Of a stretch of DNA of 64,000 nucleotides, positions 48,926-62,702 are shown piece after piece. The translations under genes and the position numbers were made by a program. Every line of letters begins with the position of its first letter. Position 1 is the stretch's first letter. Source of the stretch: Promicromonospora sp. MEB111 (lineage in GTDB: Bacteria; Actinomycetota; Actinomycetes; Actinomycetales; Cellulomonadaceae); assembly GCF_030209445.1 (NCBI RefSeq), contig NZ_JARVSD010000002.1, positions 1-64,000 on the forward strand. The letters are read 5' to 3'. Below the pieces are notes generated by a model, which saw only the letters and a list, made by a program, of their open reading frames with translations, was not told the origin of the DNA and did no database searches.

Positions 48926-49423
48926 TCAGGGCTGCGGCTGTTCCTTCATAGCCGGGGCGAAGTACTCGCCAAGCATCTCCGAGACCCACGGCGGCTGGCG
49001 CGTCTCTCCCCGTGGCCCCATCTCCGCAAACCACGGCTTGATGTCGAGGACCGGCGTCCCGTCGACCGCATCAAGGTCTTCGACGTGCAGGTCCAGGCCT
49101 TCGATTGAAAGCAGCCGGCACCGCGAGACGCCAAGCCAGTTCTGACGGCGCATGTTCCGGTGCCCGAAGATCCCGACCTCGGGCCAGTCCGGGTTGTTGC
49201 GCGGACGACGTGCACCGGGGTGGAGGTCGGACTGGTCGGTCAAATGGAAGAAGAAGGCGATCTCCAGGTGGGAGAACTCGTCAAGGCCGGCCACCGACTC
49301 CTCGCTGTAGGCGTCCGGGTCGATCCGGATGATCGAGCGGGTGCCGCCCCAGTAGTCGTCGGTCGGTTCGGTGCGGCCGCCGACGACGTGCGCGACGGGG
49401 GTCATGACGATGGGGTCGGTCAA
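48926..49423 (-). CDS. TrmO/TsaA (UPF0066) family protein
   Basis: A 165-aa single beta-barrel domain. Family members use S-adenosylmethionine, and TrmO itself N6-methylates t6A37 of tRNA. The family pattern is present: GLDEFSHLEIAFFFH, ARRPRNNPDWPEVGIFGHR, then LGVSRCRLLSIEGLDLHVED and DGTPVLDIKPW. The TrmO-typical R-SPHRPNPIG stretch is changed to HRNMRRQNWLG, so specificity may differ. The TTG at 49423 follows GGAGG. An ATG at 49405 is the alternative. It lies 14 bp downstream of the XRE-TPR regulator on the same strand, so they may form a unit. Confidence 0.85.
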   Translation of the reverse strand: MTDPIVMTPVAHVVGGRTEPTDDYWGGTRSIIRIDPDAYSEESVAGLDEFSHLEIAFFFHLTDQSDLHPGARRPRNNPDWPEVGIFGHRNMRRQNWLGVSRCRLLSIEGLDLHVEDLDAVDGTPVLDIKPWFAEMGPRGETRQPPWVSEMLGEYFAPAMKEQPQP

Positions 49424-49437
49424 CGTTCCTCCGCAGG

Positions 49438-50841
49438 TCAGTTCGTGGCAGCGAGATAGGCACTGGCTCGCTCGTCGAGAATAGCGGCGTCCGAGCTGGT
49501 GGCCTTGTAGATGGCGAGTGCAGAGCGCATCTCCACGATGGTTTGGCGTGCCCGTGCGGACTGCACGCCGTCCATTGCGTCGAGAGCCGTGTTCCACGTC
49601 TCTACTGCTTGCTCAAGTTCGCCGCGCCTGGCCTGCACGTCCCCGAGATACCCCAGCGTGACCGCATGTGTCCGCTTGAAGGTGGAAGCCTTCCGAGTCA
49701 CGACCGAATGCTCCAGTTGCTGTTCGGCCCCGGCGAGGTCTCCGATATCCCGCAAGGTGTTGCCGGTCTCGTGCGCGAGGGATGCTTCCCCGAAGAAGAA
49801 CACCCGCGCAGGCTCGTCGCCGCCTGGTGTCGCCGCCGAGAGGTCACGCTCGGCCCGGATCAAGGCCGATGTTGCCGCACTCCCCTGGCCGGTCGCGGCA
49901 AGCGCACGGGCATGCACCACGCCAAGCAGAGCACGCTCGCGTGGAGCGGCAGCCTTGTATCGGTCGCCGTCGACTGACGCCGCTGCAAGTTCCTGAGCCT
50001 GCGTTGGATGGCCGAGGTCGATCGCCTGGTGTGCCATCGCACGAAGTGTGTGCGCTGCCATCGCAGGATCGGCGGCCTCGGCCGCGAGCTTGACCGACGA
50101 GGTGAACAATCCCTGGGCGATGCCGTGCTCACCGTTATCGAACGCCATCCAGCCAGCGACATAGGCCAGTTCGGAAGCGGCAGAGAACATCTCGCCTCTG
50201 AGGGCGTCGTTCGCGAACGTTCCGTTCAGAAGACGGTGGACGTCGTCAGTCAAGTACTGCATGGCGGCAGCCCGCGCGTGCCCGCCGCCGTGCCGCTGGT
50301 CCATCCGAGAGAAGAACGCGACCGACTCACGGACGGCTTCGAGATCGCCACGTCCGACCGAGCGGACGCCTCGTGCGGCACGCTCGGCTGATCGGCGGAC
50401 CATCTCGGCCCACCACGACTCACTGGGTAGTGCGGTGGCCACGGTCGAGTAGGCCGCCAGACCGAGCAGGCCCCGTCGGGTGAGATCCACGTACTTACTC
50501 CCCAGGTCGGCCAGCCCGGCAAGCGTATCCAGATCCCACGTGGACGAATGACCAACTTCTCGCGCCGCGCTCCCGCGCTTGGTCGGGTAGAACCCGATCT
50601 CGATGTCCGTTGACGCTCCGAGGACGGCGCGAAGACCGTCGCGGTACTGCTGCCCGGGCCAGCGCGACTGACCGCGCTCGTACCGAGCGATCGCGTGAGC
50701 ATCGAGAGCGATGCGCTGCCCAGTCGAGGCCCAGACGTGCGCATTCACAGCTTCTGCCAGCTCCGCGCGGGACATAGGTTCGCCGGGGCGCAGGCGCGAT
50801 GGAAGGGCTTCGCGCCGCTCGCGAAGCAACTCGTTGGCCAT
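49438..50841 (-). CDS. XRE-type regulator with TPR repeats
   Basis: A 467-aa protein. An N-terminal helix-turn-helix (MSRAELAEAVNAHVWASTGQ, then LDAHAIARYERGQSRWP) is followed by a long helical region of TPR-like units (GEHGIAQGLFTSSVKLAAEA, GHPTQAQELAAASVDG, GDLAGAEQQLEHSVV). Such proteins are common actinobacterial pathway regulators that may sense small signals or peptides through the TPR part. The ATG at 50841 has GGGGAGGGG upstream. It is divergent from the nucleotide-type operon starting at 50997, its probable target. Confidence 0.88.
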   Translation of the reverse strand: MANELLRERREALPSRLRPGEPMSRAELAEAVNAHVWASTGQRIALDAHAIARYERGQSRWPGQQYRDGLRAVLGASTDIEIGFYPTKRGSAAREVGHSSTWDLDTLAGLADLGSKYVDLTRRGLLGLAAYSTVATALPSESWWAEMVRRSAERAARGVRSVGRGDLEAVRESVAFFSRMDQRHGGGHARAAAMQYLTDDVHRLLNGTFANDALRGEMFSAASELAYVAGWMAFDNGEHGIAQGLFTSSVKLAAEAADPAMAAHTLRAMAHQAIDLGHPTQAQELAAASVDGDRYKAAAPRERALLGVVHARALAATGQGSAATSALIRAERDLSAATPGGDEPARVFFFGEASLAHETGNTLRDIGDLAGAEQQLEHSVVTRKASTFKRTHAVTLGYLGDVQARRGELEQAVETWNTALDAMDGVQSARARQTIVEMRSALAIYKATSSDAAILDERASAYLAATN

Positions 50842-50996
50842 CCCCTCGCCCCTCCCCACCAGCAGGCCGCCCAGACGGGCGTTCTCCAGATTGTCCCGTT
50901 GATTGCCCTGCCCTGGCGAGTGAATCCCAACAAGAGTAGCGAGCAGACGCATCCCAACGACCGCCCCAGACGGCCCGGCATACTTCGGAGAGTCCC

Positions 50997-51347
50997 GTGA
51001 ACCACAGAGCAGCAGCGACGCGGCGCCTTGAAGCGCCCACTCCACCGCGGAGCACGACACGCCGTCAGACGCGACGGCTCATGGGCATCAACGACGGTCT
51101 GGCGGCGGCGTCGCGATTCCTCGATCTCGTCGGAGCCGACCGCATCGAACTGGTGACTGTGACCGCCAACCGGGTCAGCCTCCTGCCGGCCGACCTGAAG
51201 GAGGGTGAGCAGATCGCCCACACGCTCGGGCTGACCGTGCCGTTGGATCATCGAATATTCGTGCCCGGAAACACGGTATGGACCGGAGAGCGCGATGACC
51301 TGGAGGTGCAGGTCCGGTCGGTTCTGCGCCAGGTGGTGACCCGATGA
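50997..51347 (+). CDS. Small hypothetical protein, first gene of the nucleotide-type operon
   Basis: A 116-aa protein with a basic N-terminus and a compact alpha/beta part (GINDGLAAASRFLDLVGADR, then ELVTVTANRVSLLPADLK). GGAG seven bases before the GTG at 50997 supports this start. An ATG at 51081 would give an 88-aa form without the basic tail. CATACT lies about 15 bases upstream as a -10 candidate. Its stop overlaps the HAD gene start by ATGA. No family recognised. Confidence 0.65.
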   Translation: MNHRAAATRRLEAPTPPRSTTRRQTRRLMGINDGLAAASRFLDLVGADRIELVTVTANRVSLLPADLKEGEQIAHTLGLTVPLDHRIFVPGNTVWTGERDDLEVQVRSVLRQVVTR

Positions 51348-52462
51348 ACGCCATAACGGTCACGGATACTCGCACGCTCGTAGCACTCGACGTCGACGGG
51401 ACCTTGGTGGACGACGGGCGGGTCCCGCCTGGAACGGTCGACGCCTTGGACCTGGCCCGTGCCGCCGGTCACCACATCGTGCTCGCCACAGGGCGGTCCC
51501 TGGTCGGCCTCTTGCCGGTCGCTACCCGTCTGGGACTGGTCGACGGCTGGGGCGTCTGTTCGAACGGCGCGGTGACCGTGAGGTTGGACCGGTCGGCGCC
51601 TTCGGGGTACGACGTCGTTGAGGGCCGGACCTTCGACCCGGCAGAGGTCATCCAGCGTGCTCTGGACCTTGCCCCCGGAGTACGGATCGCGGCCGAGGAG
51701 GTCGGGTGGGGCTGGAAGACGAGCCGGCCGTTCGAGCCGGGAGAGCTCAACGGGCAGCAGAAACTCGTCACACTGGATGACCTGACCGCACGACCTGCCA
51801 CCCGGATCGTTCTCGCCGCGCTGGGGATCCGGCGGTACACCGACGCTCTGCACGCGACCGGGGTCACGGTGACCCCCATGGGACCGGACTGGGCCGATAT
51901 CGCGGGTCGCGGCGTGAACAAGGCGGTTGCGCTGGATGGCATCCGCCAGCACCTGCGCATCCCTCCTGAGCGGACGGTCGCTGTTGGCGACGGCGTGAAC
52001 GATCTGCCGATGCTGGCCTGGGCCGGACGTTCCGTGGCGATGGGTCACGCGCCGGCGATCGTACGCAGCGCCGCCGACGAGACCACCGGCACGATCACGG
52101 ATGGCGGAGTCCTGCCGGTGCTGGCATCCCTCGTCCCTGCCGTGGACAGTTCCCTGTCTCCGTTGGCTGCGCAGATCGCCACAGCTGAGGCCAGCGCCCC
52201 AGGGTCGGTTGCGCTGCGGGTGTGGCACGGCGCCGGAACGGACCTGTCTCGGTGCGAGGCCTGGGCTCTTAAGGACGGGCGGTGGACCCGGCATGCGCCG
52301 ATCCCGTCCGGCGTCGGCGCCACCATGCGCGCGATCGAGACCGCCGCACTGGAGGCCGGGCTGCCCTACCCCCGTGGGGACGAGGGCCGCCGCCGAGCGC
52401 AGTGGCGAAGCGTGACCGGAGATGGACCAGCCGGGTTCGAACTTCCCCTGAGTGACGTGTAG
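51344..52462 (+). CDS. HAD superfamily phosphatase, Cof type
   Basis: A 372-aa haloacid-dehalogenase hydrolase of the Cof/type IIB class, which dephosphorylates sugar phosphates and nucleotides. Motifs are DVDGTLV (nucleophile and acid Asp), ATGRS, the Lys in GRGVNKAVAL, and GDGVNDLPML. About 100 C-terminal residues form an extra domain not usual in Cof proteins. No signal peptide. The start overlaps the upstream small gene by ATGA. Confidence 0.9.
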   Translation: MNAITVTDTRTLVALDVDGTLVDDGRVPPGTVDALDLARAAGHHIVLATGRSLVGLLPVATRLGLVDGWGVCSNGAVTVRLDRSAPSGYDVVEGRTFDPAEVIQRALDLAPGVRIAAEEVGWGWKTSRPFEPGELNGQQKLVTLDDLTARPATRIVLAALGIRRYTDALHATGVTVTPMGPDWADIAGRGVNKAVALDGIRQHLRIPPERTVAVGDGVNDLPMLAWAGRSVAMGHAPAIVRSAADETTGTITDGGVLPVLASLVPAVDSSLSPLAAQIATAEASAPGSVALRVWHGAGTDLSRCEAWALKDGRWTRHAPIPSGVGATMRAIETAALEAGLPYPRGDEGRRRAQWRSVTGDGPAGFELPLSDV

Positions 52463-52538
52463 CGAGCCCGCGCTTTTCGAACTTGCGACCGTCCTTGTCC
52501 CGGACTGGTCGTGAGCCGCCCCCAGACGGCGGATTCCA

Positions 52539-52570
52539 GGCTGAGGCTCCCGGCCCCGGGAGCCTCAGCC
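52539..52570 (+). terminator. 32-bp palindrome between HAD and MurA-like genes
   Basis: Perfect 15-bp arms flank a 2-base centre. It lies in the only sizeable gap (198 bp) within the operon. It may terminate or attenuate transcription from the first two genes, implying a second promoter for the rest. Confidence 0.6.
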
Positions 52571-52660
52571 GCCCTCAAGCGAGCACTCCGCACAGCAGAA
52601 GTGGCGGCGCACGTGAGCCGTCGTGGCGGCGCTGCGAAGTTCCGACCAAAGGAGAGACGC

Positions 52661-54001
52661 ATGAGCCAGACCGCGGACATGACTGCACACACCCCGTGGC
52701 CCAACAGCCGAGACGGCGCGGCGACACCCACGGTCGTCGTTCGCCCAGGCGCTCGCCTGTCGGGCGCGGTCCGGGTAGACGGCTCGAAGAACGCGGCACT
52801 GCCTCTGCTCGCCTGCGCTGCGGTCACGGTACGACCGGTGGAGGTGTCAAACATCCCATCCAGCGCGGATGTCGGCGTGATGCTCACGCTTCTGGAACTT
52901 GCTGGCTTCGGAGTCGACCGCGCGCCGGACGATCGGCAGTCCGTGACTGTGCGTCCGCCTTCCGGACGCCGCACTGGCGATCTGGAGCCTGCTGGAGCTA
53001 TCCGGGCGTCGTACTACCTGGTTCCCGCGCTCCTGGCGGCACACGGCAGCGCTGATCTGCCCTGGCCTGGTGGCTGCCGGATCGGAGATCGCGGGATGGA
53101 TCTGCATTTCGACGTCTACGCCGCATTCGGCGATGCGATCGCCCTCGACAGCACCGGGTACCACGTGACAGCACAGGAGACTCCGGCCCAGGTGACGATA
53201 AGCCTCCCGTTCCGTTCCCGGGGCGCAAGCGTCGTGGCTGTGCTCCGAGCCGTCGTCGGGCGGGTGCGAATGGACCTGGGTAATCCGAACCTGTCTCCGG
53301 AGTTCACCGGCATTCTCGACGCTCTGCGCTCCGTCGGCTGGCGCATCGATCTGCACCCGTCCCGTCTCCGGATGGAGCCGCCGCACGACGCCGACGATGG
53401 GCCGGTGTCGTGGCGGGTCCCCGGGGACAAGATCGAGGCCGGGACCCTGGCCTGCGCGATCGCAGCCACGGGCGGCACCGGACGCATCGAGGGAGTCGCC
53501 GGCCGTGACGTCGCGTACGTCGCCCGGCTGCTCGACGCCGTCGGAGTTCGCGTCCTCGTTCAGGACGATGCACTCGTCGTCCTGGACGACGGCATCCCGA
53601 CCGGACAAGGCCTACGTGCCATCTCGTCTCTGGACCCGGGGGGCCTCGACGCCGACTTCGAACCGGCGCTGATGGCCTTGGCACTGCGATTGCCTGGCAC
53701 GCACGAGTTCGCCGACACGATCAACCCCGGACGCCACGGCAACCTGCTGGCGCAACTCGCGCGCCTTGGCGCGGACATCGAGGCACTGACCGCGACCACG
53801 GCCCGCTTGACCGGACCACAGCATCTTGCCGGAGGGACAGCAGAAGCCACGGACATCCGGACCGGTTCGGCCCTGTTGATCGCGGCGTTGACTGCCCACG
53901 ACGAGACGACCGTCATTGGGCTCACGCAGCTTCGACGTGGCTACGCCGATCTGCCTGGCAAGCTTCGTGCGCTCGGCGCGGACCTCCGGGAGCGACCGTG
54001 A
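52661..54001 (+). CDS. MurA-like enolpyruvyl transferase
   Basis: A 446-aa EPSP/MurA superfamily protein. MurA transfers enolpyruvate from phosphoenolpyruvate to UDP-GlcNAc. Key MurA residues remain: Lys43-Asn44 in GSKNAALP, Cys139 in PGGCRIG, and Asp332. The segment around that Asp is ADFEPALM where E. coli MurA has TDMQAQF, so the acceptor pocket probably differs. AAAGGAG precedes the ATG. The context, with phosphatases, deaminase-like proteins and a glycosyltransferase, fits a specialised nucleotide acceptor, as in NikO/PolA enolpyruvyl-UMP synthases, better than cell-wall synthesis. That is an inference. Confidence 0.88.
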   Translation: MSQTADMTAHTPWPNSRDGAATPTVVVRPGARLSGAVRVDGSKNAALPLLACAAVTVRPVEVSNIPSSADVGVMLTLLELAGFGVDRAPDDRQSVTVRPPSGRRTGDLEPAGAIRASYYLVPALLAAHGSADLPWPGGCRIGDRGMDLHFDVYAAFGDAIALDSTGYHVTAQETPAQVTISLPFRSRGASVVAVLRAVVGRVRMDLGNPNLSPEFTGILDALRSVGWRIDLHPSRLRMEPPHDADDGPVSWRVPGDKIEAGTLACAIAATGGTGRIEGVAGRDVAYVARLLDAVGVRVLVQDDALVVLDDGIPTGQGLRAISSLDPGGLDADFEPALMALALRLPGTHEFADTINPGRHGNLLAQLARLGADIEALTATTARLTGPQHLAGGTAEATDIRTGSALLIAALTAHDETTVIGLTQLRRGYADLPGKLRALGADLRERP

Positions 54002-55203
54002 CCGAACGCGTACTGGAGCGGATCGTGGCGACGACCGACGTGCACTCCCAGCTCGGGCAGATCGGTCCGTTGCTCGCTGGGCTGCACGAGGCGCGGCGAG
54101 ACGGCCTGGTCGTGGACTGCGGCGACTTCTTCGAGGGAACCGGCTACTACCGCCTCGGCCGGGCCCGGATCGAGACGGAGATACTGGCGTCGATCTATGA
54201 CGTCGTCGCACCCGGGAATCATGGGTGGCGCCATCATCTGGAGCCCGGTCTGCGCGAGCTGACCGTGTGCGCCAACGTGGTCGACCTGTCGACCGGTGAG
54301 GCGCCGTTCCGCCGCTTACACCAGACGACCGTTGGTGGACGGCGCGTGGCTGTCACTGCCGTGATCGGTGAGCAGGCGTTCGCAGCGATCCCGGTGGGCG
54401 AGCGTTCTGGGCACCGTGTCATCGCTCCTGCTTCCGCGCTCACTGGCCTGTGGGCCGAGCATTGTCACGACGTTGACGCGTGGGTGCTGCTGTCGCACTC
54501 CGGCTTCGAGCACGACCTTCGGCTTGCTGAGGCGTGCCCGTTCCTCGACGTCGTCTTCGCGGGCCACTGCCACAGCCAGCGTCATGGGCCCGGACGGATC
54601 GGTTCAACCGTGGTCGTCAAGGGTGCGGAACTCGCGGCCGGCTTCTCGACAGCCGCACCAACGAGGGAGGGCTGGCATGCGAGCACCGCCAGATTCGGGC
54701 CCGTCGACACGCTTCCGGCGCTGCTGGAGCCGTTTGGCGATCGGATCGCGCTCCTTCGCGACCAGTTGGCGACACCGATCGGCCTGCTCGAACCCTCCTG
54801 GAGAGACCGCGCCCTCGACCGCCGGGCCGTGCTCGAACAGGTCGCCAAGTGTCTTCAAGCGCGCGCCACGTCGTCCGTGGTGATCCTCAATGAGTCCTCT
54901 CTGCGGGAGCCCTATCTCGGGAAGATGCTGACCGCCGACAACTTGCTTGCCATCGAGCCGTTCGGCAACAGCATCGTGCAGGCCCAAGCGTCGCCCGAGA
55001 TGGATCTCTCCGACTTGCTCGCGGAGTTCGAGGAGCGGGCCGGTCCTTTGGTCCTAAACGGCCGCCAGGTTTCCGCGCCTGTGAACAGCGTCGTGACCAC
55101 CAGCTACCTCGCCGAAACGCTCTCCGTTGCCGAGCCACCCGCGACACTGCTCGACCTCAGTCAGGCCGTCCGTCACGTCCTCTGCTCGGAGGTACTGCCA
55201 TGA
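53998..55203 (+). CDS. 5'-nucleotidase-type metallophosphoesterase, cytosolic
   Basis: A 401-aa two-domain protein of the UshA/5'-nucleotidase family. The metal-binding motifs are TDVHSQ, DCGDFFEG, PGNHGWRHH, LSHSGFEHD and GHCHSQ. The C-terminal substrate domain has LREPYLGKMLTADNLLAIEP followed by FGN. Relatives are usually exported, but no signal peptide is present, so it acts inside the cell on nucleotides or nucleotide-sugars. The GTG start overlaps the MurA-like stop (GTGA), and its stop overlaps the next start (ATGA). Confidence 0.9.
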   Translation: MTERVLERIVATTDVHSQLGQIGPLLAGLHEARRDGLVVDCGDFFEGTGYYRLGRARIETEILASIYDVVAPGNHGWRHHLEPGLRELTVCANVVDLSTGEAPFRRLHQTTVGGRRVAVTAVIGEQAFAAIPVGERSGHRVIAPASALTGLWAEHCHDVDAWVLLSHSGFEHDLRLAEACPFLDVVFAGHCHSQRHGPGRIGSTVVVKGAELAAGFSTAAPTREGWHASTARFGPVDTLPALLEPFGDRIALLRDQLATPIGLLEPSWRDRALDRRAVLEQVAKCLQARATSSVVILNESSLREPYLGKMLTADNLLAIEPFGNSIVQAQASPEMDLSDLLAEFEERAGPLVLNGRQVSAPVNSVVTTSYLAETLSVAEPPATLLDLSQAVRHVLCSEVLP

Positions 55204-55736
55204 TCCTCACCGGTCCCGAAATCACCGCATCCGTCCGTGACGGACGCCTACGGATCAGACCGTTCGAGCCCGCGCAGGTCAATCCGAACAGCTACAACGT
55301 GCGCCTCGGCCCGACTCTCATGACGTACGTGGACCCGGTCATAGACGCGCACCGCCCCAACCCGACGTCCACCATCGAGATCGGACCCAAGGGGTACGTC
55401 CTGCAACCGCACCAGCTCTACCTCGGGCACACGCTGGAGGAGGTCGGGTCGGATGTGTTCGTGCCGCTACTCTTCGGCCGGTCCTCGGTCGGGCGGCTCG
55501 GACTGTTCGTTGAGATCACCGCTCCGATCGGCGACATCGGGTTCCACGGCCAGTGGACGCTCATGCTCGCCCCCACGCGACCGCTGCGCGTCTACGCCGG
55601 GATGAAGATCGGGCAGATCATGTTCTTCGTCGCCTCCGGGCCGCTCGAACTGTATGCAGGCAAGTACCAGGCAGCGCGGGGACCGCAGGCCTCGCGCTAC
55701 TGGCACGACATTCCCCGACCCGCGGCGGCCTCATGA
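55200..55736 (+). CDS. dCTP deaminase-like protein 1, catalytic Glu missing
   Basis: A 178-aa trimeric dUTPase/Dcd-fold protein. It keeps the Dcd motif NSYNVRLG and GRSSVGRLGL, so the residues equivalent to E. coli Dcd Ser111 and Arg115 are present (Ser95, Arg99). The general base Glu138 is replaced by Met122 (TLML), and His121 by Glu105. It therefore should not deaminate dCTP alone. It overlaps both neighbours by ATGA. The next gene is an equal-length paralogue that retains the residues lost here. Confidence 0.88.
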   Translation: MILTGPEITASVRDGRLRIRPFEPAQVNPNSYNVRLGPTLMTYVDPVIDAHRPNPTSTIEIGPKGYVLQPHQLYLGHTLEEVGSDVFVPLLFGRSSVGRLGLFVEITAPIGDIGFHGQWTLMLAPTRPLRVYAGMKIGQIMFFVASGPLELYAGKYQAARGPQASRYWHDIPRPAAAS

Positions 55737-56269
55737 TCCTGACCGGCCCCGCCATCGCCGCGGCCATCGCGGCCGGGGACATCGTCATCGACCCCTTCGA
55801 CCCGGAACGGCTGTCGGAGAACGCGTACGACTGGCGTCTTGGTCCGACGCTTCGGGTCTGCGCGACGGATCTGGATGCCGCCGTGCCAACGCCCTTCACC
55901 GAGGTCACCATCCCCGAGACGGGCTACGTCCTGGAGCCGGGGATCCTGTACCTCGGCGTCACCCTGGAGCACACGGCCTCCGACCGGTACGCACAGATGC
56001 TCAACGGCGACCGCATCACCGGCAACCTCGGCATCTGGGTCCACGTCTCAGCACCACTGGGCCACGTCGGGCACGCCATCCGCTGGACGCTGGAGATCCG
56101 CGTCGTCCGACCCGTGCGCATCTATCCCGGCATGACGTTCGGCAAACTCATCTTCCTACGCACCTACGGACCGGCCGTCAGCTACCAGCAGCTCGGCCGC
56201 AAGTACACCTCGACCGACGGCATCGACATCTCCCGGCTCCACGAAGAGTTCCAGGAGGACACCCCATGA
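55733..56269 (+). CDS. dCTP deaminase-like protein 2, Ser/Arg site missing
   Basis: A 178-aa paralogue of the preceding protein with the same start (MILTGPAI). Here the E. coli Dcd Glu138 and His121 equivalents are kept (Glu121 in WTLEI, His104 in WVHV). The GRSSLAR segment is changed to GDRITGN, which removes the Ser111 and Arg115 equivalents. The start overlaps the upstream stop and the stop overlaps the glycosyltransferase start (ATGA both times), so all are made in coupled amounts. A mixed trimer with the first paralogue is attractive but unproven. Confidence 0.87.
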   Translation: MILTGPAIAAAIAAGDIVIDPFDPERLSENAYDWRLGPTLRVCATDLDAAVPTPFTEVTIPETGYVLEPGILYLGVTLEHTASDRYAQMLNGDRITGNLGIWVHVSAPLGHVGHAIRWTLEIRVVRPVRIYPGMTFGKLIFLRTYGPAVSYQQLGRKYTSTDGIDISRLHEEFQEDTP

Positions 56270-57351
56270 CCGCTCGTGTGGCGACCTTCCTCGACCTACC
56301 AGTCGGAAGCCCCGGCGGCAGCGTGGAGCTGTTCCGCGACCTGTATTCCGGTACCGAACCACTCATCCCCGCACGAGCATTCATGCTCGACCCAGGCCAC
56401 AACGGGCTCGCGGCCCTGCCGGGTATGGACCTGCTCGCCGTCGAGGGCAAGTGCCTCGACGGGCCCGGCTTCACGCGGTACGTCACCGCGCTGCACCACG
56501 CCCTGGCTGACGTACTCAACCCCGAGGACGTCGATGTCGTCCACCTGCAACACCTCGCCTTCGGCGCTACTCCGGCTCTCCTACGAACTCTCCCAGACCA
56601 CCCTGCGATTGCGCTGGTACACGGGACTGACCTGCTGTTCGCCGAAGCTCATGCGGACCAACTGCGAGTCCTGCACGACACCGTCCACCGCGCGAACGTG
56701 ATCGTCGTACCCACCTCGGCCATGGCGGATCGACTTCGCACGCTCGCCCCAGATGTAGACCGGCCCGTGAAGATCCCCTGGGGCATCCCGGACCACCTCC
56801 TCGCCGAACCGCCTCTATGGTGGCCATCCCCGAAGAACAAGCTCAGACTGCTGTACGCGGGCAGGCTCACCTCCGAGAAGGGCAGCGACCGCCTCGCCCA
56901 AGCGCTTGGCGCGGCCAACGGCTTCACGGTCAGCATCGCCGCGCCACCCCACGAGTTCCGCGATCTCCAGCCAGCCCTGCGGCACGCCGGGCTCGATGTC
57001 AACTACCTCGGGTGGCTTCCCAGGCGTGAACTGTGGAAGGCATTCGCGGAGCACGACGCCCTGCTCATGCCCTCCACCACCCTGGAAGCCATGGGTCTGG
57101 TCGCCCTCGAAGCACAAGCCTGTGGACTGCCGGTGCTCTACCAACCCGTACCGGGGCTCGACGAGGCCCTCGGCGTGTCGGCGCTGCCCACGGACTTCAC
57201 CGACCCGGATCGCGTCGCGAGGAATCTACGTCACCTCGTCACACCTAGCGTGGCCGACGAACTCCGCGAATCCGCCCGCGCCAACGCCGCTCGATTCCCC
57301 TTGTCCGTCACCGTTTCCGCGCTGACCGCTCTTGGCGACAGCCTCGCCTGA
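56266..57351 (+). CDS. GT4 family glycosyltransferase
   Basis: A 361-aa GT-B fold enzyme. The N-terminal domain carries GSPGGSVELFRDLY and VALVHGTDLLFAE-like segments. The C-terminal donor domain starts LRLLYAGRLTSEKGSDRLAQ and contains the GT4 nucleotide-sugar motif PSTTLEAMGLVALEAQACGL with the usual E-x7-E. AGGAGG lies upstream of the ATG. It transfers a sugar from a nucleotide-sugar donor. The acceptor is unknown but is expected to be the product of the upstream enzymes. Confidence 0.9.
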   Translation: MTARVATFLDLPVGSPGGSVELFRDLYSGTEPLIPARAFMLDPGHNGLAALPGMDLLAVEGKCLDGPGFTRYVTALHHALADVLNPEDVDVVHLQHLAFGATPALLRTLPDHPAIALVHGTDLLFAEAHADQLRVLHDTVHRANVIVVPTSAMADRLRTLAPDVDRPVKIPWGIPDHLLAEPPLWWPSPKNKLRLLYAGRLTSEKGSDRLAQALGAANGFTVSIAAPPHEFRDLQPALRHAGLDVNYLGWLPRRELWKAFAEHDALLMPSTTLEAMGLVALEAQACGLPVLYQPVPGLDEALGVSALPTDFTDPDRVARNLRHLVTPSVADELRESARANAARFPLSVTVSALTALGDSLA

Positions 57352-57428: not shown

Positions 57429-58472
57429 ATGCCCTCCACCACCGAACAGCTTCGTGACCTGGTGACCACTGGAGTACACGACCGTGTCTACCCGGGCGCG
57501 GTATGGGCCGTAGGCGACGCAACCGGCATCACCGACCGCGGCGCAACGGGCCTCCTGGACCCGGCTCGACCCGATGAGCCCATGGAACCGGACACGATCT
57601 TCGACGTCGCAAGCCTCACCAAGATCCTCGCCGTCTGGACCACCATCGGAACTCTCTGGCAGGACGACCACCTGGACCTCGACGAGCCTCTGGGGCAGTT
57701 CTGGCCCGACGTCGCCGGACACCCGCTCGGACGCGTTACCAGCCACCAGCTCCTGACCCACACCGCCGGACTGCCCTTACGCGCCCAGCTCAAGAACCTC
57801 TACGGCACCGACCATGACGCCATCCGAACCGGCGTCCTGCACGAAGCCCTGCACCGCGAGCCCGGCCAAGCCGTGGAGTACACCGACCGCGCCGCCCTCA
57901 TCCTCGGCTACCTCGCCGAGTACCTCAGCGGCGAACGGCTCGACCATCTCGCCACCGACCGGGTCTGGGGCCCGCTCGGCATGCAAGAGACCCGCTACGG
58001 ACCTCTCACGGCTGAACTGGTCGCACGGTGCGCCCCGACCGAGCTCGACGACGAGACTGACACCCACCTCAAGGGCACCGTCCACGACTTCTCCGCCCGC
58101 CTGCTCGGCGGTGTGAGCGGCATCGCCGGGGCGTTCTCCACGCTCGACGACCTCGCCCTGCTACTTCGCTACATGCTGGACCCTGCCGCCGCCGCGACCC
58201 CTGCCGGCTTCGGTCCAGAATGGACACGCGAGTCACTGAACGTCCACACGGGCGGCCTCGAACCTGCGCGGGGCCTGTTCTGGCACCCGGCGCCCGGCAC
58301 CGATCCCGCCGACCAATCCTGGACGCACTACGGCTTCACCGGCACAGCCCTGTGGCTCAATCCGAAGCAGAGCCGCTGGGCGGTACTGCTCAGCAACAAG
58401 CTCTACTACACCCGCAGTCGCGAGCCTCTCGCGCAGGTCCGCGACCGGTTTCGCGAGATCGTCTTCGGCTGA
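57429..58472 (+). CDS. Beta-lactamase-fold serine hydrolase, cytosolic
   Basis: A 347-aa class C beta-lactamase/esterase-like protein. The nucleophile motif SLTK is at about residue 62, EYTD replaces the Tyr-x-Asn motif at about 155, and HYGFTGT stands in for the KTG box. There is no signal peptide, unlike cell-wall enzymes of this family, so hydrolysis or transacylation of a cytosolic small molecule is likely. AGAGGA precedes the ATG. It is the last gene of the operon, 77 bp after the glycosyltransferase. Confidence 0.88.
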   Translation: MPSTTEQLRDLVTTGVHDRVYPGAVWAVGDATGITDRGATGLLDPARPDEPMEPDTIFDVASLTKILAVWTTIGTLWQDDHLDLDEPLGQFWPDVAGHPLGRVTSHQLLTHTAGLPLRAQLKNLYGTDHDAIRTGVLHEALHREPGQAVEYTDRAALILGYLAEYLSGERLDHLATDRVWGPLGMQETRYGPLTAELVARCAPTELDDETDTHLKGTVHDFSARLLGGVSGIAGAFSTLDDLALLLRYMLDPAAAATPAGFGPEWTRESLNVHTGGLEPARGLFWHPAPGTDPADQSWTHYGFTGTALWLNPKQSRWAVLLSNKLYYTRSREPLAQVRDRFREIVFG

Positions 58473-59006: not shown

Positions 59007-62000
59007 TTAGCCTGGCGATGCGTGATGGCGATGGACGCGGAAGTGTTTGCCGTCCGATGTCTCGGGGAAGCTAGTAACAATTCCAGCTTCTTGGAGGCGT
59101 GTGAGGATCGTTTTGTGGTCGTTGTCTGCGGGCACCAGAGGCTTCGAGGTGCCGTAGTCGCTGATCTCCGCGTACACGTCGCCAATCTGATGGACCAAGA
59201 GACGCACAGCCGCGGGTTCCAGACTAGATCGAGCGACGAGCGCGACTAGTGTCTGGGGTCCGGCAGCCCCATTGATCAGCACCGCGAGCTGCTCCTCTGT
59301 GAGCTCCAGGTTCTGGTCCTCGCAGTATTCTGCGATGGCCCGAAGTCCTTGCGGGTCGGCGCCCGTCGTGTACTGGCCGAGGCGGTCGACGATCGTTTGC
59401 TTGACTGGCCGGGGCACACGACGGCTGTCCATCACGGCGGCGACCGCCGCTGGTGGGAGCAACGTCGGTGACATGTAGTGCACGAATTCTGTCGAGCGCG
59501 CGATCGCTGCTTCGAGCGTTTCGGGATCCGCGATCACGTCCGGAGTGAAGCTTGTCTTATCGTCAGGGATGATCCCGGCGCCGATGAGGAGCCCGGTCAG
59601 CTCTCCCGGTTCTGGGGCAATGTCGGAACGTGCCAGTGGAGTGTCCAGATCGATCTCGCTGGCAACCCTGACTCGATCGGCTGGGTCGGAGATCGCCTCG
59701 GAGGCTTCGAGGAGCTTGATAGCGACCGTCCTCGCTTGGCGTTGCGTCCCGGGCACGGTGATCGGGCGAATGATGACCAAGGTCCCAAGGGCGGCATCAA
59801 CACCCCGCTTTTGTATGTACGCGTGAAGATTCTCGATCGACGGCACGAGCTTGAGATGCTGAGCGAGCGCGTTCCACGCGCTCTCGTCGACATCAGCGAT
59901 CTGTTTCGTCTGGCAAAAGAGGTCCGCACGAGCGACGAACATGTCGATCAGATCGGGATGAGCGCCCATCACGTCGTTGACGATCTCGTCGAACGCCTCT
60001 GGCTCGATTACCGTGGGTCCCGTCCGGTCGAGCGCCATATAGTCATCGAGCCTCTCGAGCGTGTACGCGTAGATCGGCTCGCTGGCCTTCTTGAGGAGGT
60101 CCATCGCCGGCTCCTGAACGCCGGTGAGGTAAGTCAGGTTCTCAGCGGTGACCATGTAGGCGTTGGCAGCGCGAACGATGGCGAGGGAGCCCTCGCTCAG
60201 CGGCCGAACGTCCCGCAACTTGGCCCCAGTGGTAACGACGAGCTGTGCGGCGTGGGTACCGGATCTCCCTGCCGCCGTCAGGGTCGGAAAAGACGCGTAG
60301 TACTCCTCGACGTAGACGCGCACCGACTCGTCGAGCTGATAGTCCACGCGCGAGTCCCAGGATGCCAGAGCCGCATCTACCAACGCATGCCGCGACCCAT
60401 CGGTCACGGGAGCGTGTTCGACAAGGAACGGGAAGATCGCGTCCCACTTGGGCGTCAGGATCTTCACGAGTCCGGGGGCGTACTTTCCTTGGCGAAGGTA
60501 GTCGTTGATGAATGGGATCGATGCTGCGACAAACCTGACGAGTTCTTCAGCAATCACGCTGGCCGCGAGTCGTTCACCCTTGAGGAGGTGATCAACGATA
60601 GAGATGTTGTGCATGCTCGGGTCTCGTATCGCTTCAGGGCGTTCGCGGAGGATAGCGTCAACCTCATCGCCAGACAGTTCATATGTAAGGTCGGGCATTC
60701 CCTTGTCCACCTGGCGCAGTACGTAGTTCATCGCGTTCACGTTGATGTGATCACCGTAGAACGGTGAGATATACAGGCTGAAATACTCGTCCAGATAGTC
60801 TCGTTCGATGAGCTCCCGTGCAAGCGGTGACTTGACCAGTACCTTTGCTCGTTCGGCGAAAGTGACGGGCGCATCGAGCTTTGTTGCAGGCGTGACCTCC
60901 GGTGATCGATAGAGTTCCGCCCAGCCCGCATGCCTGATCGTTGCGATGTCCGTCGTAAGTTTGAGAAGTTCGAGCTCCAACTGTGGCCGCTCCTCCTCGT
61001 CCCAGCGCGCCGTATCGAAGGGCTCACGGATTAGATGTCCAAGCTGAGCAGCATTGAGCTCGATATGACCACTCGCGGTATCGATGAGAAGATTGGTGCC
61101 ATTCTTGACGAGATCTCTCCAGAATGTGACATCAATAGATGTCGGATCCGTCAGCCACCGGCCATCTATGTAGACCCGGGCCTGCCCATTCGAAGACAGC
61201 CCTCTCGCGAGCTCAAAGAGTTTCTCCGCCATGCGCTCAGTCCTGTACTCAAGCGAGTCAAGGCCATCGAGGGCTCGGCGATACGTGGCCGCCTTAGCAA
61301 CTCGAATTTCCGCTATTGCGGCAATGTGTTGCCGACCGAACTCGTACAGGGTGTCGAGTTCGCTGGTACCGAGACGGATTTTCTCGAAGTCTGCGAGGTG
61401 CACGTTCTTGTAGACCACGATGGCGAATAGGTGGTTGTCATCCAGTTCCGGTACCGGGTGTCTTCCCTTGATGAGCTGGCGGTGGAACACCCTAAACTCG
61501 TTCCAGATGTTTGTGACCAGGCGCATGTCGGCGATGTGTCGAGCAACAAGGCTGATGAGCTCGGGGCTGATTTTGTACTGTGATTCGTTGAGAGTCTTGC
61601 TCATCAGGTCTCTGGCGTTCTGGCGGCTGATGAACGGGACGACGGGGATGACCAGGTCGAAGAACTTGGTCCGGTTCGCGCGCTCCACGCTTTCACGGGC
61701 GAGGTCGAACGATGTCGCTGTTTTGGTGTCGCTTTCGCGTTGGTCGACAGCCTTCGGCTCGGTTTCTTTGGTTGCTCCGGCCGTGGCCTGGTCTGCGGCG
61801 GCGAGGTCTTCTCCGAGCTGCTCGAAGACGGAGTCGCGCATGGCGTAGATGAAGCGGATGGGGAGTTTATCGAGTTGCTGCGCTCGGTTGAGCAGGGTGT
61901 TCAGCGAACGCAGCGTCTCGAATATCTCGGTGTTCTCAAACCTGTCGATGTCCTCGAAAACGACCAGGGTGCGACCGGTTTCGTCGAAGAAATAGACGAT

Positions 62001-62702
62001 TTCGTCGAGGTACTCATCGAAGTAGCTCGCCGAGCGGGGGGATAGCGAGATGTTTGCACTCGAGGGGCCGGCCGAAATTCCGTCGATCACGAGTTTGCCG
62101 CGCGTCAGACGCAGGAGGAAATAGGTGCCCGTTCCGACCACAACGAATGTGAAAACGAAGACGGCGAGTGCTGCCAGAGCACTGCTGTCGACTACACGAC
62201 TGATCTGCCCGCCCAGTACCAGCAGAGCGGCGACGAGTAGCCCGATGATGGTCGCCGGCAGCACGCCATCGACCTTGCGTCCGCGCGTGGTCCGCCGGAA
62301 TCGAGATTTCGGCATTTCTTGAGGTCGTGCCTGGTAGAGAATCTGCTTGACGATCTCCTTCTGGATTTGGTTCGTCGGCGTGGTGGCGGCCGGGTTTGCG
62401 TACTCGGCGGTTGAGGTCTTGTCCGGTGCGCCCAGGCTCGACAGAGAGATGCTTACGACGTTGTCGCCATTCTTCTCAAGGTCTCGGACGAGCTGTTGCA
62501 GGATGCTGCTCTTTCCGGTGCCGTATGCCCCGGTGAGCGCGATGTTGTGCGCTTCATCGCGCGTGATCGCGTCCTTGAGCAGGTCCAGATACAGACCGTG
62601 GTCGCCTACTTCGTATCGTGGGGTGAGCGAGGTCAGCACCACCTCTGGACCGGACGCATCGCTCGAGGGCACCGCGGTCTCGGCACTCGTGCTGTCACCC
62701 AT
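59007..62702 (-). CDS. YobI/KAP-type membrane P-loop NTPase
   Basis: A 1231-aa protein. The N-terminal NTPase has Walker A GAYGTGKS (58-65) and Walker B LVVFEDIDRFE (246-256). Two transmembrane helices are inserted between them (about 147-168 and 175-197), the layout of YobI- and KAP-family NTPases. About 900 residues of mostly helical sequence follow, with no further motif. KAP-related NTPases include phage-exclusion proteins, and family members often sit in prophages and defence islands. The composition is clearly less GC-rich than the native chromosome. It is divergent from a HEPN-motif gene at 63262, a possible partner. The ribosome site at the ATG is weak. Confidence 0.87.
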   Translation of the reverse strand: MGDSTSAETAVPSSDASGPEVVLTSLTPRYEVGDHGLYLDLLKDAITRDEAHNIALTGAYGTGKSSILQQLVRDLEKNGDNVVSISLSSLGAPDKTSTAEYANPAATTPTNQIQKEIVKQILYQARPQEMPKSRFRRTTRGRKVDGVLPATIIGLLVAALLVLGGQISRVVDSSALAALAVFVFTFVVVGTGTYFLLRLTRGKLVIDGISAGPSSANISLSPRSASYFDEYLDEIVYFFDETGRTLVVFEDIDRFENTEIFETLRSLNTLLNRAQQLDKLPIRFIYAMRDSVFEQLGEDLAAADQATAGATKETEPKAVDQRESDTKTATSFDLARESVERANRTKFFDLVIPVVPFISRQNARDLMSKTLNESQYKISPELISLVARHIADMRLVTNIWNEFRVFHRQLIKGRHPVPELDDNHLFAIVVYKNVHLADFEKIRLGTSELDTLYEFGRQHIAAIAEIRVAKAATYRRALDGLDSLEYRTERMAEKLFELARGLSSNGQARVYIDGRWLTDPTSIDVTFWRDLVKNGTNLLIDTASGHIELNAAQLGHLIREPFDTARWDEEERPQLELELLKLTTDIATIRHAGWAELYRSPEVTPATKLDAPVTFAERAKVLVKSPLARELIERDYLDEYFSLYISPFYGDHINVNAMNYVLRQVDKGMPDLTYELSGDEVDAILRERPEAIRDPSMHNISIVDHLLKGERLAASVIAEELVRFVAASIPFINDYLRQGKYAPGLVKILTPKWDAIFPFLVEHAPVTDGSRHALVDAALASWDSRVDYQLDESVRVYVEEYYASFPTLTAAGRSGTHAAQLVVTTGAKLRDVRPLSEGSLAIVRAANAYMVTAENLTYLTGVQEPAMDLLKKASEPIYAYTLERLDDYMALDRTGPTVIEPEAFDEIVNDVMGAHPDLIDMFVARADLFCQTKQIADVDESAWNALAQHLKLVPSIENLHAYIQKRGVDAALGTLVIIRPITVPGTQRQARTVAIKLLEASEAISDPADRVRVASEIDLDTPLARSDIAPEPGELTGLLIGAGIIPDDKTSFTPDVIADPETLEAAIARSTEFVHYMSPTLLPPAAVAAVMDSRRVPRPVKQTIVDRLGQYTTGADPQGLRAIAEYCEDQNLELTEEQLAVLINGAAGPQTLVALVARSSLEPAAVRLLVHQIGDVYAEISDYGTSKPLVPADNDHKTILTRLQEAGIVTSFPETSDGKHFRVHRHHASPG

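Follow-up and report, generated by a model that had tools for sequence, protein, structure and literature searches.

Overlapping genes for two dCTP deaminase-family paralogues with complementary active-site losses, candidate subunits of a composite-site enzyme

Enzymes of the dCTP deaminase (Dcd)/dUTPase superfamily place their active sites between subunits. Trimeric dUTPases are described as combining motif III of one subunit with motifs I, II, and IV of the next (PMC12524310), and Dcd sites as lying between two protomers (PMC12088426), which agrees with an earlier note on the DNA analyzed here that had put them between the subunits of a trimer. We examined a 64,000-nucleotide stretch of Promicromonospora sp. 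MEB111 (contig NZ_JARVSD010000002.1, positions 1 to 64,000; the whole stretch is called the window), in which two adjacent genes encode members of this family, here named Dcd1 and Dcd2. Both open reading frames (ORFs) lie where the earlier note had found them, encode 178 amino acids (aa) each, and share 4 bp. Their features are the following.

55200..55736, + strand: Dcd1, the first partner; 178 aa, DCD family, with an intact phosphate-binding motif II (S95, S96, R99); D112 is kept, M122 replaces the catalytic Glu, and E105 replaces H121
55733..56269, + strand: Dcd2, the second partner; 178 aa, DCD family, with E121 (= E138) and H104 (= H121) kept, and R94, N98, and H111 where S111, R115, and D128 are expected
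55733..55736, + strand: ATGA, the 4-bp overlap of the Dcd1 stop and the Dcd2 start
55473..55505, + strand: codons of Dcd1 motif II, residues 92-102
55533..55535, + strand: codon of Dcd1 Asp112 (= E. coli D128, kept)
55563..55565, + strand: codon of Dcd1 Met122 (= E. coli E138, lost)
56003..56035, + strand: codons of the degenerate Dcd2 motif II, residues 91-101
56063..56065, + strand: codon of Dcd2 His111 (= E. coli D128, lost)
56093..56095, + strand: codon of Dcd2 Glu121 (= E. coli E138, kept)

We aligned the two proteins with 28 housekeeping Dcds of the Cellulomonadaceae, with pairs from other loci, and with solved Dcds, and we use E. coli Dcd numbering unless a residue is assigned to Dcd1 or Dcd2. 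We take S111 and R115 to belong to motif II and D128 and E138 to the motif III region; the E. coli mutations R115A and E138A reportedly each abolish activity. All 28 housekeeping Dcds, the host's included, are canonical at S111, R115, D128, and E138 (27 of 28 in a second alignment of sequences cut to 200 letters, in which one row was out of register). In Dcd1, S95 and R99 are the equivalents of S111 and R115, D112 is that of D128, S112 is also present, and M122 and E105 occupy positions 138 and 121. In Dcd2, E121 and H104 are the equivalents of E138 and H121, and R94, N98, and H111 occupy positions 111, 115, and 128. The alignment with E. coli and solved Dcds thus confirmed what the earlier note had reported, that one protein keeps Ser111 and Arg115 with Met for Glu138 and Glu for His121, and that the other keeps Glu138 and His121 without Ser111 and Arg115. 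The note had missed a further complementary position, D128, the motif III Asp of trimeric dUTPases and bifunctional Dcd-Dut enzymes, which is present in Dcd1 and replaced by His in Dcd2. Neither chain carries the full functional set of a dCTP deaminase, because Dcd1 lacks Glu138 and Dcd2 lacks Ser111 and Arg115.

Membership of the family is clear for both proteins. Against the Pfam DCD model (PF22769; cut-off 27 bits), Dcd1 scored 137.1 bits and Dcd2 87.5 bits; both match the sequences of solved Dcd structures, and the two share 41% identity across 169 positions. The dCTP deaminase equivalog TIGR02274 (cut-off 92.8) places Dcd1 above its cut-off (102.1) and Dcd2 below it (56.5). With DCD_N (PF06559; cut-off 21.4), which marks two-domain Dcds, Dcd1 reached 13.5 bits and Dcd2 had no match at E 1; the two are separate overlapping ORFs, and so represent neither a two-domain Dcd nor a fused dUTPase of the herpesvirus type. 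The pair is distinct from the housekeeping enzyme, since a canonical Dcd is encoded elsewhere in the host genome (6.23 Mb in 35 contigs), on contig G000:C18. A search of PADLOC-DB for anti-phage dCTP deaminase defense gave no match to either protein at E 0.001. AlphaFold monomer models were of low confidence, the motif regions included (mean predicted local distance difference test score 62.0 for Dcd1 and 54.5 for Dcd2), and were not used as evidence.

The split between the two proteins recurs in their relatives. A search of genome contigs with Dcd2 found 151 relatives, of which the best 80 were taken, a sample biased toward close ones; the first partner is present in 79 of these 80 loci, and the exception (L074) begins near a contig end. 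Loci were grouped by gene context into types A to E and R, E and R being names coined in this analysis (two unannotated loci, L188 and L189, were typed E by their position in the tree). Our census comprised 105 loci with both genes, one of which (L091) has a disrupted first gene and was not scorable. In all 104 scorable pairs, one partner has D128 without E138 and the other E138 without D128; the partners of types C and D were labeled by their residue at 138, and those of plasmid pairs by visual inspection of these alignment columns, so that beyond types A and B independent evidence comes from the remaining columns and from the presence of one Gln gene and one Glu gene per locus. Position 138 of the first partners is Met in 79 and Gln in 25, and never Glu; position 128 of the second partners in these pairs is His in 91, Asn in 8, and Gln in 5. 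All 106 second partners have Glu at the E138 position, and none of them has G133.

The motif II lesion is less widespread. All 89 second partners of types A–C have lost S111 as well as R115, whereas all 17 from types D, E, and R retain the two residues. The complementary split proposed in the earlier note therefore holds across relatives in the form of D128 against E138, and the part of it that concerned S111 and R115 is confined to types A–C. Loci left out of the census (L005 and L006, which duplicate the window and L035; L170-L172, L174, L175, L177, L182, and L199; and the short loci L118-L152) were scored later, and none violates the split; L170, L171, and L174 are disrupted or truncated, and only one gene is present in L175/L146. 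A subsequent check of additional loci showed the split in all 31 in which both genes could be scored, although strains may partly repeat in this set. The co-occurrence of homologues as pairs with the same split, which the earlier note had suggested checking, was thus found with few exceptions. We conclude from these alignments that the split is neither chance nor recent decay; pseudogene debris, which we had considered as an explanation of the pair, was rejected because of the conservation.

The genes also stay together, and their motifs are unequally fixed. The 4-bp overlap is found in 77 of the 80 distinct pairs of types A and B (79 loci and the window). Among columns in which at least 97% of type A and B sequences have one residue, Dcd1 has 11 of 11 in motif II, 19 of 21 in motif III, and 63 of 134 elsewhere; the corresponding figures for Dcd2 are 5 of 11, 19 of 21, and 53 of 134, which puts its motif II near background.

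Family members are also found in Streptomyces and on plasmids. At E 1e-28 the family is present in 60 of 392 Streptomyces genomes, 58 of which have at least two matches; in the other two, the locus is cut by a contig end (G860) or the second gene is broken by a frame change (G911). Part of these 60 genomes were inspected individually, and types C and D came from that search. A plasmid search with Dcd1 returned 56 records, which were examined in part (Mesorhizobium is among those unread). A plasmid search with the second partner of Rhizobium etli returned 15 records, 11 with matches in at least two places (two of these 11 are Rhizobium) and 4 with a match in one. The 4 single-place records are all from Paenibacillus or Aneurinibacillus, two of them being P. 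polymyxa records of equal length. The three singles examined (L178, L180, and L190) keep S111, R115, D128, and E138, are 42-45% identical to Dcd1, and form the nearest outgroup in the tree; the records of L178 and L180, searched whole, contain no second DCD gene. The earlier note had held that a single complete Dcd at a homologous locus would tell against its proposal. Complete singles do exist, but they stand in other neighborhoods, and so look like pre-duplication forms and not like replacements at the same locus.

In a tree with these canonical singles as outgroup, the second partners form a clade together with a lone second-partner gene, L115 (support 99/92), and first and second partners are jointly separated from the singles at 97/89. 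In an earlier tree without the single outgroups, the first partners formed a grade, and a single clade was not rejected (approximately unbiased test, p 0.174). Pairwise distances of 34 first and 34 second partners are strongly correlated (Mantel r 0.93, with 0 of 5000 permutations as high). The trees fit one old duplication followed by joint inheritance. On the simplest reading, a complete Dcd was duplicated once, and one copy lost E138 and the other D128; the second copy would then have lost motif II on the branch of types A–C, and Gln at position 138 of the first copy would have changed to Met in types A and B.

From these observations we infer how the two proteins assemble, in what stoichiometry, and with what activity. 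In this superfamily, one subunit gives the phosphate-binding motif II, and its neighbor the base-binding motif III and the catalytic carboxylates. After the duplication, Dcd1 would have lost the motif III Glu and kept motif II, and Dcd2 would have kept the Glu and, in the type to which the window belongs, lost motif II. Neither protein could then form a standard site as a homo-oligomer, and only an interface between motif II of Dcd1 and motif III of Dcd2 could do so. In types A–C this interface is the only one with both deaminase-type halves, and even it lacks D128. We consider it probable that Dcd1 and Dcd2 are obligate partners in a single hetero-oligomeric enzyme with a composite site, a member of the dCTP deaminase/dUTPase superfamily. 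The mixed oligomer with composite sites had been suggested in the earlier note; it gains support from the recurrence of the homologues as pairs with the same split, the association of the two chains being the inferred part. The alternative given in the note, two subunits repurposed for nucleotide binding, is the less likely one.

A trimer would contain at most one complete Glu-type site. We favor two Dcd1 chains per Dcd2 (2:1), because motif III of Dcd1, with its Asp, is near-invariant while motif II of Dcd2 is not; the two Dcd1 chains might then form between them another site, with the Asp only, for binding or hydrolysis. The fixed motif III of Dcd1 is a hint of such a functional Dcd1-Dcd1 interface. 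More tentatively, we propose an asymmetric trimer that has a Glu-type site (Dcd1/Dcd2) and an Asp-type site (Dcd1/Dcd1), acts on a ribo- or modified pyrimidine nucleotide, and is a module common to at least six uncharacterized and otherwise dissimilar biosynthetic operons of actinomycetes and rhizobia.

Several observations count against an obligate two-subunit enzyme. The family is patchy: the pair was found in 2 of 200 Cellulomonadaceae genomes (2 of the 13 of the genus) and in 2 of the 396 genomes of a phylum sample that included its own. The second partners of types D, E, and R, which keep motif II, could in principle act alone, and the near-invariance of motif III in Dcd1 exceeds what a dead half-site would need. 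In the tree, the first-partner group has weak support (72/53); when the motif region is omitted, first and second partners no longer fall each on one side of a branch (2 changes for the first, 3 for the second); and correlated distances are expected from operon co-inheritance alone. Three second-partner genes have no adjacent first partner. The genomes of two of them, L115 (G125:C168, on a 4.6-kb contig) and the C-terminally truncated L169/L120 (G462), otherwise show only a canonical Dcd. The third, L199, on an Embleya plasmid (NZ_CP108785.1, 5129015-5137488), has no first partner within 8.5 kb; it keeps S111, R115, and E138, has Asn at 128, and lies about 11 kb from the first partner of the Embleya record, which holds another pair. 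There are also broken copies (a second first-partner gene in G616, and those in G911 and L091) and in-frame stops in the second-partner genes of G965 and G933. As to its surroundings, L115 lies between P-loop kinase-like and ATP-grasp genes, with a metallophosphatase-like ORF nearby.

Some of these observations would suit a pair of subfunctionalized homo-oligomers, in which a Dcd1 trimer would be an Asp-type nucleotide pyrophosphohydrolase with a dUTPase-like motif III that has D128 and lacks the deaminase Glu, and a separate Dcd2 trimer would act on a new substrate, binding its phosphates by means other than motif II. Such a Dcd1 would account for its nearly invariant motif III and for the retention of S111, R115, and D128 in every scorable first partner and of K178 in all but one disrupted row, and the three unaccompanied second-partner genes would fit an independent Dcd2. 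We nevertheless regard this explanation as unlikely, given the near-strict pairing, the 4-bp overlaps, and the mirrored histories of the genes; moreover, the type A–C second partners have lost S111 and R115 throughout and yet always keep the Glu, which is hard to explain if they work on a nucleotide by themselves.

It is also quite improbable that catalysis belongs to Dcd2, with Dcd1 as a nucleotide-binding pseudoenzyme such as a sensor of the pathway's end product, or that both are non-catalytic nucleotide binders. The idea draws on types D, E, and R, in which Dcd2 keeps E138 as well as S111 and R115 and Dcd1, as always, lacks E138, and on the (d)CMP/cytidine deaminase-family gene found in three type E/R loci, with which the pair itself need not deaminate. 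In types A–C, however, such a Dcd2 would need Dcd1 for phosphate binding, which amounts to the composite site again, and in types D, E, and R, 15 of the 17 second partners have neither Lys nor Arg at position 178, and those displayed lack the KYQ C terminus. That Dcd1 is self-sufficient, with Glu105 at the H121 position substituting for Glu138 in types A and B (Glu in 80 of 80 first partners, where 138 is Met), is very hard to credit, because in types C, D, E, and R the first partner combines Asn or His at this position with Gln at 138, and because it leaves Dcd2 unexplained.

The proposed hetero-oligomer would be encoded within a compact operon, of which the window shows the following further genes.

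52511..54001, + strand: MurA-like enolpyruvyl transferase (EPSP_synthase family, GGC motif), start codon uncertain; in 67 of 69 type A loci
53998..55203, + strand: UshA/SoxB-like metallophosphatase, with weak NCBIfam matches only; in 68 of 69 type A loci
56266..57351, + strand: GT4-family glycosyltransferase, sharing 4 bp with the Dcd2 stop; next to the pair in all 80 type A/B loci (69 of type A and 11 of type B)
57429..58472, + strand: serine hydrolase of the beta-lactamase/PBP4B family; in 65 of 69 type A loci
51344..52462, + strand: HAD-IIB phosphatase, upstream; among the 69 type A loci, a homologue only in that of the other Promicromonospora

Four successive 4-bp overlaps link the genes from the MurA-like transferase through the metallophosphatase, Dcd1, and Dcd2 to the glycosyltransferase. 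The four type A loci that lack a serine hydrolase homologue are cut short by contig ends, and the HAD-IIB phosphatase probably lies outside the operon core.

The other types place the pair among different genes. None of the 11 type B loci has the other type A neighbors; 10 of them have a conserved ORF near the pair, of the HIT family by Pfam where scanned, and some have ROK, AurF, ATP-grasp, or argininosuccinate-synthase-like genes. In type C, a distance of 7 to 10 kb separates the partner genes in seven Streptomyces loci, against less than 2 kb in Embleya, and the first partner forms the N-terminal domain of a larger PPDK_N/PEP-utilizer protein (L155, 4635-7268, by Pfam), with similar long ORFs in L153 and L157. 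The L155 protein joins a Dcd half-site to a dikinase-like enzyme. Type C clusters also encode DUF6031 and DUF6001 proteins (L153, 11676-12287; L155, 10974-12086), and our literature search found no mention of DUF6001. The annotated type D loci have genes for a metallophosphatase, TauD, the second partner, the first partner, PIG-L, GT4, a prolyl-tRNA synthetase-like protein, GT28, and HIT. The synthetase-like gene (L167, 11912-13567; L162, 12090-14081; L181, 12102-13772) has tRNA-synt_2b, tRNA_edit, and anticodon domains and is perhaps a self-resistance or biosynthetic enzyme.

Type E comprises plasmids of Streptomyces F12, Nonomuraea, and Nocardiopsis and two unannotated Streptomyces records, and type R comprises Rhizobium plasmids. 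A methyltransferase is annotated in all five annotated type E/R loci, and a (d)CMP/cytidine deaminase-family gene is present in all three that were scanned (two matches above the Pfam cut-off and one below it, at 21.3 bits). On the R. etli (L179, 7496-8525) and R. sullae (L185) plasmids a divergent pair lies by methyltransferase and NUDIX genes, and the R. etli locus additionally carries a deaminase-family gene.

Pair contexts are rich in metallophosphatases, kinase-like P-loop proteins, HIT and NUDIX proteins, nucleotidyl transferases, and glycosyltransferases, and the operons resemble those of nucleotide or nucleotide-sugar biosynthesis. The most likely role of the pair would be pyrimidine nucleotide turnover, through deamination or pyrophosphate release (two reactions that would look the same in sequence), in a small-molecule pathway that also employs an enolpyruvyl transferase, a phosphatase, and a glycosyltransferase. 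We take W131 of Dcd to be the counterpart of the motif III Tyr of dUTPases. This Tyr is described in PMC12524310 as conserved and as selecting deoxyribose. All 106 second partners carry His, Ala, Ser, Pro, or Thr at position 131; with the aromatic residue lost, a ribonucleotide or modified nucleotide is plausible, and the pyrimidine substrate is perhaps of this kind. A named product for the window operon (with nikkomycin-type enolpyruvyl-UMP and a mycothiol-like GT4 as models) was considered and rejected, as only the gene families support it.

Three further genes of the window, all on the − strand, are of note. An NsdA-family TPR-like regulator (49438-51060; NF053720, 350.8 bits) lies upstream of the operon, and two of the 69 type A loci have genes similar to it, at 31-35% identity. 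Another gene encodes a protein with a TrmO_N domain (48926-49597; 82.1 bits). A 1231-aa YobI-like P-loop NTPase (59007-62702; Pfam YobI-ATPase, 359.8 bits) matches the anti-phage protein Tmn in PADLOC at E 1.1e-46.

In the annotated records examined, the genes of the pair bear names such as dCTP deaminase. Our literature search, which most subscription journals lie outside, found no description of such a pair or of a cluster built on it. Viral contigs gave no relative of Dcd2, and phage records gave three distant matches, two of them annotated as trimeric dUTPase. If our reading is right, the pair would be a clear natural case of a homo-oligomer with inter-subunit sites that became an obligate hetero-oligomer, its two catalytic carboxylates divided between duplicates, and an ancestral-looking single-gene form would still be extant. 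The rule that D128 and E138 stand on different paralogues would also flag unexplored nucleotide-related operons, such as those of type A in many Streptomyces.

Known systems resemble the pair in different respects. Homotrimeric E. coli Dcd belongs to the same family (PF22769, TIGR02274), has a similar length, and has its sites between two subunits; known Dcds are homotrimers with every catalytic residue on one chain, whereas here these residues are divided between two genes. The Paenibacillus and Aneurinibacillus plasmid singles are canonical relatives of Dcd1, but each is one gene with the full residue set. Hybrid human dUTPase trimers demonstrate that asymmetric trimers can be made, and their subunits work independently (PMC4827122); they are covalently linked laboratory constructs of one gene and not natural paralogues. 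The monomeric herpesvirus dUTPases of Epstein-Barr virus and pseudorabies virus (PMC12524310) contain a duplicated fold whose copies give motif III on the one side and motifs I, II, and IV on the other to a single site, but there the two domains are fused in a viral dUTPase, and here they are separate bacterial proteins with the deaminase-type Glu on one of them. Apicomplexan PanK1 and PanK2 are likewise paralogues with complementary losses and an inter-subunit site, for which one complete site per heterodimer has been proposed, although they are unrelated kinases of coenzyme A synthesis. A common complex has been demonstrated for these kinases (PMC8366970).

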